Below are positions 21,448-52,910 of a stretch of 64,000 nucleotides of DNA, one piece after another; positions within the stretch are counted from its first letter, which is position 1, and each line of letters begins with the position of its first letter. The DNA comes from Bacillota bacterium (GTDB taxonomy: Bacteria; Bacillota; Clostridia; Peptostreptococcales; Anaerovoracaceae): NCBI GenBank assembly GCA_030536355.1, contig JAUNQD010000005.1, positions 1 to 64,000 on the forward strand, read 5' to 3'. Both the position numbers and the translations under genes were made by a program. A model generated the notes under the pieces. The model worked only from the letters and a program-made list of their open reading frames with translations, searched no databases and was not told the DNA's origin.

Positions 21448-22545
21448 TTAATTTTCTCTTCTTCTAGTAGCAACTACAGCTGCCATTGCTGCCAGAGCAA
21501 TACCCGCGATAGCGAATGGAACTACGCTGTTATCGCCAGTGTTAGGGGATTTTTCTGGCGTAGCTGGAGCTGTTGGTGTTGTTGGAATTACTAATTCAGA
21601 TGTGTCTATCAACTTTGATGCATCTGTTCCACTATCTACAACAACGTTATCATATGTAACATTTGATTCTCCCTTAATGGTCAATGGCAGATCTGCTTTA
21701 AATCTAATACTACCTTCTCCCATATTTGAAATTTTTACAGTTGAGTCTTCAATTGTCACAGGACATTTTTCAAGTGTTATACCACGACCTGAACCGTCAC
21801 TAATAGTCACGTCAGAACCATTTATAATTTGAAGCTTTGAACCGTTAAACCCATTATCACCACCTGTGATAGTCACCTTAGTATTATCAAGGGTAATGTC
21901 GTTGTGCACGGATCCTCTAACAACATTAGTAAAGCTCAACGTTGCGTCATTAATTATTACTTTAGTACCGCAAGTACTACCAGTGCCATAAAACACTGAA
22001 CCATTTGACGTATTATTCTTAAGTGTCATAGATCCTCCATTGACAGTAAGAGTACTTTGACCTTGGTAAAGCATAAACACTCCACCATTATCACCAGTGC
22101 CAAAATTTTCGCCGACAACACTAACGTTATTCAAAACCATATGTCCGGTAGTCGCATGTCCTGATGTGGCACCGCCCACAGCAAAAATACCTTTATTAGA
22201 CGTCCCAGTTATGTCAACACCAGAAATATCTATAGTACCGTTTTTAATAGTCAATGTTGAATTATTACATACAACATTATAGTTAGTTGTAACAGCCAGT
22301 GTCTTTCCATTCAAGTCAAGTGTAACATTAATATCATCTTTATTCAGATAAAAGCTTGTGCTTAATGTCACATTTTCTTGTAACACAATAGTGTCGCCAT
22401 TAACTGCCGCATTAAGAGCGTTCTGCAACGTATCATACTCTGTGCTGCCAATTTTAGCAACATTAGACGCAGCAAACACCATACTTGGCATCATAGCAAC
22501 CACCATCGCTGCAGTAGCTATAATAGCTAATAATCTTTTTCGCAT
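21448..22545 (-). CDS. Sortase-anchored surface protein with beta-helix-like repeats
   Basis: A 365-residue exported protein. The N-terminus (MRKRLLAIIATAAMVVAMM.. ending VFA|AS) is a Sec signal peptide. The mature region has repeated short valine/threonine/asparagine-rich units (LDLNGKTLAV, LTIKNGTIDISG, LTVNGGSMTLKNN), the pattern of a right-handed beta-helix. The C-terminus has SPNTG (about 333-337), a hydrophobic stretch and ATRRREN, a sortase sorting signal with S in place of the usual L. The ATG at 22545 has AAAGGAG upstream; the open frame extends further but starts with non-signal sequence. Codon use is more A/T-rich than its neighbours. It is probably an adhesin or cell-wall component; no enzymatic motif is seen. 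Expression may be phase-variable (see 22611-22781). Confidence 0.85.
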   Translation of the reverse strand: MRKRLLAIIATAAMVVAMMPSMVFAASNVAKIGSTEYDTLQNALNAAVNGDTIVLQENVTLSTSFYLNKDDINVTLDLNGKTLAVTTNYNVVCNNSTLTIKNGTIDISGVDITGTSNKGIFAVGGATSGHATTGHMVLNNVSVVGENFGTGDNGGVFMLYQGQSTLTVNGGSMTLKNNTSNGSVFYGTGSTCGTKVIINDATLSFTNVVRGSVHNDITLDNTKVTITGGDNGFNGSKLQIINGSDVTISDGSGRGITLEKCPVTIEDSTVKISNMGEGSIRFKADLPLTIKGESNVTYDNVVVDSGTDASKLIDTSELVIPTTPTAPATPEKSPNTGDNSVVPFAIAGIALAAMAAVVATRRREN

Positions 22546-22610
22546 TATTCTTCTCCTTTTCTTTCGTACTCTAATGACACAAATGTGTCTATAAACACTC
22601 TCTTTGAAAT

Positions 22611-22781
22611 ACAACGTAATAACTGTTATGTTGTAAAAAGTGAGGAAAAGTGAACATGCCTAGGGTTAAATTTCAAAAATTTAGTTGAATTATTTGTCAA
22701 AATAAGTGATAATATGGGTGTATGTAATTATCAAATACTCTTTATATGAAAAATTTGACAACATAACAGTTATTATGTCGT
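22611..22781. repeat. Putative invertible promoter segment (inverton) bounded by two inverted recombination-like sites
   Basis: The left site (22611-22634) reads ACAACGTAA, core TAACTG, TTATGTTGT. The right site (22758-22781) reads ACAACATAA, core CAGTTA, TTATGTCGT. Each is a dyad of 9-bp arms around 6 bp, as in tyrosine-recombinase crossover sites. The asymmetric cores are exact reverse complements, so the sites are inversely oriented; the two sites agree at 22 of 24 positions. Recombination would invert the 123 bp between them, which carry a promoter. The left site is 66 bp from the surface-protein start. Size and arrangement resemble the invertible switches known in Clostridioides difficile (about 21-bp repeats, 150-200 bp). 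No recombinase gene is in the window. Function is inferred. Confidence 0.75.
22685..22713 (+). promoter_or_regulatory. Promoter inside the invertible segment (TTGAAT-17-GATAAT), pointing away from the surface gene
   Basis: The -35 TTGAAT (22685-22690) and -10 GATAAT (22708-22713) have a 17-nt spacer on the plus strand. In the present orientation transcription would run into the terminator at 22789-22814, giving an RNA of about 90 nt. After inversion it would face the surface gene with a leader of about 125 nt. I see no comparable minus-strand promoter in the segment. A 12-of-15 CodY-box-like sequence (22668-22682) abuts the -35. Confidence 0.6.
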
Positions 22782-22788
22782 ATACAGT

Positions 22789-22814
22789 CGATGCATTCAG
22801 CATCGTTTTTTATT
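22789..22814 (+). terminator. Intrinsic terminator just beyond the invertible segment
   Basis: The stem CGATGC/GCATCG (22789-22794 with 22800-22805) is followed by TTTTTT. It starts 8 bp after the right recombination-like site and no coding gene precedes it on this strand, so it appears to serve only the promoter inside the invertible segment. Confidence 0.75.
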
Positions 22815-23030
22815 GTAGAAAAGGCCGGATTTGTGGCTGTGTGGTTTCCGCAAGAACAGATGTGATCATACGCGAAGTGAAAATAAAGAATAGCTAAATC
22901 TCGGGAACTGTTTGAATGTCTGAAAGACATGAGTTTTCCCGAGATTCTATTCTTTCTGAACAAGCGTATATGATCGCCTGTGATGAGGACTTAACACAGC
23001 CACAAATCCGGCCTTTTGGCAAATAAAAAA
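22806..23030. repeat. Large imperfect palindrome (about 225 bp), possible MITE or structured RNA
   Basis: A 24-bp perfect inverted repeat (22819-22842 with 22994-23017; outer part AAAAGGCCGG) extends outward with 3 mismatches in 21 positions to the T and A runs at both ends. Inside, further pairs match with small bulges (GATCATA at 22864-22870 with 22969-22975; AAAGAATAG with CTATTCTTT; an 11-bp AATCTCGGGAA stem at 22897-22907 with 22936-22946). The apex is a small hairpin ATGTCT-GAA-AGACAT (22916-22930). The whole sequence can fold into one long hairpin. It lies between a rightward and a leftward terminator, so neither neighbour transcribes it. No protein-coding signal is seen. Confidence 0.75.
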
Positions 23031-52711: not shown

Positions 52712-52910
52712 AAAAAATAATACAGGCTGTCCGTATGGCTCACCTGACCTGATCTTTGCCCCCACACCTGCCTTGACCCGGATTTTCCGGAGGACTTACT
52801 TCTAAACTACGCCATGATCACTGCCGCCTTGCGGATCAGCTTACGTGGGACCCTTCGCCCGTAGCTGGCCTGGCCTTTCAATCACAGACATGAGCCATAC
52901 GCACAGCCCG
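52712..52910 (-). ncRNA. raiA-type structured non-coding RNA
   Basis: A GC-rich 190-200-nt block lies in an otherwise A/T-rich gap between comF and hpf. Its ends pair through an 18-bp closing stem (52725-52742 with 52891-52908, one mismatch), and several internal stems are visible (for example TCCGG/CCGGA; a GATCCGC/GCGGCAGTGATC region). On the minus strand the closing stem runs into a T-rich tail (ATTATTTTTTT), so it acts as its own terminator. Size, compactness and position immediately upstream of the raiA/hpf gene match the raiA RNA motif of Firmicutes, reported to affect sporulation and aggregation. The assignment rests on context and structure; no covariance model was run. Confidence 0.72.

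Follow-up and report, generated by a model that had tools for sequence, protein, structure and literature searches.

A probable invertible promoter, one of five predicted switches with private core sequences upstream of paralogous surface proteins in a Bacillota genome

Between positions 22611 and 22781 of the 64,000-nucleotide stretch of DNA analyzed here (the window; C43:1-64000 of a 1.83-Mb genome in 44 contigs) lies a segment that is very probably an invertible promoter, i.e., an inverton, worked by a tyrosine recombinase encoded elsewhere in the genome. A promoter switch inverted by a tyrosine recombinase, as proposed in a preliminary description of this DNA, is by far the best reading of the segment, and is supported by a cognate recombinase family, by recurrent site pairs with matched cores, and by both promoter orientations among homologous loci. 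At the sequence level, the elements on which this reading draws are all present, i.e., sites, cores, promoter, terminator, paralogous targets, linkage of recombinase and sites, and both orientations in relatives; from this anatomy and these relatives, the window locus itself would be expected to flip.

Sites, promoter and target gene of the window locus

The preliminary description had placed two facing 24-bp sites, each with 9-bp arms around a 6-bp core, 123 bp apart, and had noted that the cores TAACTG and CAGTTA are exact reverse complements (Table 1). Both statements were confirmed: the site pair is unique within the window, and 100 dinucleotide shuffles of the window yielded no comparable pair. 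The locus hence has the inverted sites with identical asymmetric crossover cores that define invertons. Each of the two sites contains one arm-to-arm mismatch, and the inverted match extends beyond them to 30-nt arms (22609-22638 and 22754-22783) that are 90% complementary.

Table 1 Features of the window locus (window coordinates) and facing site pairs elsewhere in the genome (contig coordinates)
Feature	Position	Strand	Description
Target gene, 365-aa surface protein	21448..22545	-	Signal peptide MRKRLLAIIATAAMVVAM; C-terminal NTGD/hydrophobic/RRR sorting signal (TIGR01167)
Ribosome binding site AGGAG of target gene	22553..22557	-	AAGGAGAA conserved in five loci
Predicted gene-proximal recombination site	22611..22634	+	ACAACGTAA-TAACTG-TTATGTTGT; 9-bp arms around asymmetric 6-bp core
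Predicted invertible segment, 123 bp	22635..22757	.	Carries promoter; OFF orientation in assembly
Promoter TTGAAT-17-GATAAT, directed away from surface gene	22685..22713	+	-35/-10 conserved in 5/5 switch loci
Conserved block TGTATGTAATTAT just past -10 box	22719..22731	+	Candidate start region or operator; five-locus alignment
Predicted gene-distal recombination site (inverted partner)	22758..22781	+	ACAACATAA-CAGTTA-TTATGTCGT
Intrinsic terminator CGATGC-ATTCA-GCATCG-TTTTTT	22789..22812	+	Stem 22789-22805; would stop outward (OFF) transcript
Facing pair	C13:29302/29450		Core TATACG
Facing pair	C6:40546/40713		Core CACCCA
Facing pair	C10:9481/9667, continuing on C30:4		Core GATGAA
Facing pair	C39:10939/11179		Core GGTAAA

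A promoter scan of the window returned 3 promoter-like sites where 2.7 were expected, i.e., not above chance, and was not counted as evidence on its own; we relied instead on conservation across the five switch loci of the genome. On that basis, the plus-strand promoter proposed earlier, pointing away from the surface gene, was upheld, as was the intrinsic terminator, which begins 8 bp beyond the right-hand site with its stem followed by T6. The same terminator hairpin sits between switch and recombinase on C39 and C30. No promoter was seen between the gene-side site and the start codon of the target. Inversion would bring the end of the -10 box to 133 bp ahead of the ATG at 22545 as computed from the coordinates, close to the distance of about 125 bp given originally. 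The DNA thus holds an internal promoter so placed that its orientation would decide expression of the flanking gene. Past the terminator, the plus strand holds nothing resembling a target; it continues with a 225-nt palindrome and then the 3' end of a 679-aa gene on the opposite strand.

Five predicted switches and two adjoining recombinases

Genome-wide, the shared arms ACAACATAA-N6-TTATGTTGT occur in five facing pairs including that of the window, each with its own 6-bp core, and the site pattern gave 11-12 forward matches compared with 1-2 for a reversed control pattern. A site with 3 mismatches at C28:43208 was taken as a chance match because it is single and unpaired. All five loci share the same order, i.e., terminator, site, outward promoter, site, ribosome binding site and surface gene, and all five are in the OFF orientation in the assembly.

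The five target proteins are paralogous, with a common signal peptide and a common NTGDNSxxPFAxAGLxLAAMAAVVATRRR-like end, while their middles differ. The window protein and several of its paralogs score above the cut-off of TIGR01167 (LPXTG anchor), and a sortase is encoded on C13. In keeping with LPXTG-type wall-anchored proteins, a signal peptide, a sorting motif, a hydrophobic stretch and a basic tail are present, and the ends are conserved in six paralogs; the sorting motif of the window protein is NTGD and not the canonical LPXTG. The sixth paralog (G000:C24, L035 7248-8387, minus strand) has the same signal peptide and anchor without an invertible segment upstream.

In all, the genome yielded five genes for tyrosine recombinases. 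The search for such an enzyme near similar sites, suggested in the preliminary description, identified two, on C39 and on C30 behind the C10/C30 switch. These recombinases, of 280 aa each and 66% identical, adjoin their switches, and their genes each read toward the switch. Both carry the catalytic pattern R, K, H-x-x-R, H, Y as read from the alignment, and in a tree with 85 members they group as sisters (support 99/77). They share the fold family of XerC, XerD and XerA, with the XerC-like 4a8e and XerA 5hxy as best solved relatives, but match the Xer models far below the NCBIfam equivalog cut-offs (138.6 vs 220; 116 vs 329.6), and an identity as XerC, XerD or XerA equivalogs was rejected on that ground.

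No recombinase lies beside the window, C13 or C6 switches, which would therefore be served in trans if they flip; the cognate recombinase of the window inverton would be that of C30 or C39 rather than an adjacent one. The three remaining tyrosine recombinases, with identities read from the sequence, include a 293-aa XerC/D-like protein encoded on C28, separate from the switch recombinases, and a 449-aa phage-type integrase. The third of them, of 377 aa (G000:C33, L038), is encoded between a miaA-like gene and a gene for a 531-aa secreted repeat protein, and showed no link to the switch sites.

The same module and its orientation in other genomes

A homologue scan of 84,980 species genomes identified at least 80 loci with homologous recombinases that are 53-65% identical, nearly all from gut Clostridia among the matches listed. 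In most of the 80 listed loci, no more than 60 bp separate the recombinase stop codon from the first site, whose partner lies ~200-390 bp further on. This second, gene-side site is usually followed after 16-65 bp by the start of a gene that has a ribosome binding site. We evaluated core matching in 69 pairs, i.e., 64 recombinase-linked loci (one counted twice) and the five of the window's genome, with sites picked by their arms alone. Cores were exact reverse complements in 68 of these pairs, and the remaining pair had a single mismatch, while the rate of exact core match between loci was 1.7%; there were 44 distinct cores, none palindromic. Matching asymmetric inverted cores are what inversion by tyrosine recombinases needs, and all but one of the pairs have them.

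The targets of these switches are diverse, and include camelysin-like proteins, a Band 7 protein, helix-turn-helix proteins and repeat-rich secreted proteins. Camelysin-like targets occur at L097 and L118, and Band 7/SHOCT targets at L076, the locus on which Pfam was run, and in look-alikes by sequence at L081, L085 and L136; the module would therefore control more than classical surface proteins. Within the genus of the window's genome, one further site pair (G022:C7, L055 3110-3322) lies ~1.06 kb past the recombinase, before a signal-peptidase-like gene.

Only 3 of 49 genomes of the genus carry the recombinase, and the system is therefore patchy. Among 15 other genomes that were checked, the ratio of switches to recombinases was near one-to-one (2 and 2, 4 and 4, 1 and 1), these switch counts allowing up to 2 mismatches and being lower bounds. 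By contrast, the window's genome counts two such recombinases for five switches. The simplest account of this would be that recombinase-linked switches were duplicated together with their surface gene, and that part of the copies lost the enzyme, or never had it, and rely on action in trans. A DNA search for the window locus in 60 relatives returned no similar DNA at all, two scans of viral contigs (with the gene-side junction and with the double-site pattern) gave no match, and a literature text search for the site sequence found nothing relevant.

Orientation was examined in 68 segments by scoring the best promoter on both strands of each. The promoter pointed away from the gene (OFF) in 54 segments and toward it (ON) in 10, with 4 ties. 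The -10 box lay 30-52 bp from the site edge ahead in 45/54 OFF and 8/10 ON segments, compared with 6/54 and 0/10 on the losing strand. Many homologous segment pairs align strongly only when one is inverted (L088 vs L096: inverted score 100.5, direct 15.0, largest shuffled score 26.5; L085 vs L124: inverted 69, direct 12), and the segment therefore occurs both ways round among relatives. Both orientations are thus present across the family of homologous loci, with the window locus OFF in this assembly; at the one locus compared between the sister isolates An131 and An138, the orientation was the same, i.e., no flip.

Contig ends offer a second, indirect view. The end of C10 and the start of C30 share an identical 55-bp overlap, and C30 starts exactly at the first base common to both orientations of the C10/C30 segment, the point at which a mixture of both orientations would make a de Bruijn graph branch. 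In other genomes, at L065, L102 and L138 (the last from the cultured isolate An131), the contig stops 0-2 bp beyond a site's inner edge (P ~2e-4 under a uniform spread over 350 bp), and in one genome two contigs (L102/L146 and L144), apparently carrying the two sides of a single switch, stop at an identical base. Of the recombinase loci, 13 have a contig end in the 350 bp that follow the recombinase, compared with 3 that have one in the 350 bp preceding it (P = 0.02). Such breaks at site edges are as expected if both orientations had been sequenced, an indirect sign given that assembly breaks can have other causes.

Alternative readings, proposed mechanism and known systems

Could the window locus be a decayed switch, copied from a recombinase-linked one with its sites kept, its inversion lost, and its promoter stuck OFF? 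We consider this unlikely. The locus does lack an adjoining recombinase, has one arm mismatch per site and is OFF in the assembly, and almost every other genome in the survey gives each of its switches a separate neighboring recombinase; but the cores of the window locus are still exact reverse complements, arm mismatches of the same sort occur in recombinase-linked switches, and the promoter, the terminator, the ribosome binding site and an intact 365-aa ORF have all been kept.

Far less probable still are two readings without inversion control of the surface gene. Each site is near-palindromic, and a dimer might bind it or a hairpin form from it, so that the inverted repeats could serve a dimeric regulator for binding, or act as transcript hairpins, and never recombine, but such a role predicts neither cores that match within a locus and differ between loci, nor a tight linkage to tyrosine recombinases, nor homologous segments in opposite orientation, nor contigs that break at the edges of sites; we rejected it on the grounds of the matched cores and of the linkage to recombinases. 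As for an outward orientation that is itself functional, with the promoter making a short RNA that ends at the terminator and does not control the surface gene, 54 of the 68 segments do have a promoter that points outward, and into a terminator at the loci examined. Against this, 10 loci have a gene-facing promoter at the same offset, the gene-side site is followed in most loci, after 16-65 bp, by the start of a gene that has a ribosome binding site, and the window terminator stands only 8 bp past its site, all of which leave this reading very improbable.

Under the preferred reading, an inverton switched by a tyrosine recombinase, the Xer-like 280-aa enzyme of C30 and/or C39 would bind the ACAACATAA/TTATGTTGT arms of both window sites, and strand exchange inside the matching 6-bp cores would invert the 123-bp segment. 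In the assembled orientation, the promoter would fire into the terminator and the surface protein would be OFF; after inversion, transcription from it would cross the gene-side site and enter the surface gene (ON). The four other loci would work likewise on paralogous surface proteins. Both the action in trans on the window switch, including which of the C30 and C39 enzymes performs it, and the ON/OFF effect on expression of the surface protein are predictions from the anatomy and from relatives. Given a private core at each locus, sites should recombine only with their own partner, and the five proteins could therefore switch independently without large rearrangements.

We see an even chance that this reflects a broader, address-coded system, in which the recombinases would accept almost any asymmetric 6-bp core so long as partners match, and one or two enzymes would suffice to operate, in trans, an extendable repertoire of surface-protein switches that act independently; here, recombinase-linked switches would have multiplied into orphan switches over one paralogous family. 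If true, up to 32 coat states would be available to the window's genome. In any case, a single suspected switch becomes a set of five with named candidate recombinases, belonging to a recombinase-site module that is spread through gut Clostridia before secreted, anchored, camelysin-like and other genes. From the rule for the cores, i.e., same within a locus and different from one locus to the next, comes a simple sequence-based test by which switches can be found in assemblies; the rule also predicts which sites can recombine. An assembly of such a species would display one of several possible states of surface-protein expression.

Dispersed invertible promoters of surface structures (capsule) are served in Bacteroides fragilis by a master invertase, Mpi, which is a serine recombinase. 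The likeness lies in dispersed promoters under a master enzyme; here, the enzymes are tyrosine recombinases and the targets single proteins, not capsule operons. This kind of system is already known from the RecV switches of Clostridioides difficile (cwpV, flg, cmr), a comparison made here by description. RecV inverts multiple sequences (PMC8844915), and is therefore a precedent for one recombinase acting on dispersed clostridial switches; its targets are unrelated genes, whereas all five targets in the window's genome are paralogous anchored proteins.

The family of the window switch, with its repeat written as ACAACATAAT-N4-ATTATGTTGT, may well correspond to inverton group 139, to which it is likened here by description. 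According to a 2025 survey (PMC11892184), 32 of the 33 members of this group are from Clostridia, nearly all next to a tyrosine-type invertase of group 35, and the motif is called previously unpublished; in its Clostridium sp. D5 example, 26-bp repeats ~205 bp apart changed orientation during passage. A clostridial host and an adjacent tyrosine-type recombinase are shared with the family, while no recombinase is adjacent at the window locus and 3 of the 5 switches of its genome, this one included, are without an adjacent enzyme. The original suggestion that this sequence and target had not been described therefore holds for the window member and for the five-switch, two-recombinase arrangement, which are new, and does not hold for the clostridial type, which is known and whose inverton group may well have been published in that survey (PMC11892184).

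Two further features of the window were observed. Right after the switch terminator, positions 22806-23030 form the 225-nt near-perfect palindrome, with outer arms of 37 nt that are 89% complementary and, with short flanks, a predicted fold of -117.6 kcal/mol (z = -13.9). An Rfam search of this palindrome gave no match, and its inner part has at least 7 diverged copies in the genome at 69-79% identity (C4, C16, C36, C13, C40, C25, C34); it seems to be a MITE-like or structured repeat. A raiA RNA (RF03072) lies on the minus strand at 52735-52898, with 124.9 bits against a gathering score of 101.3.
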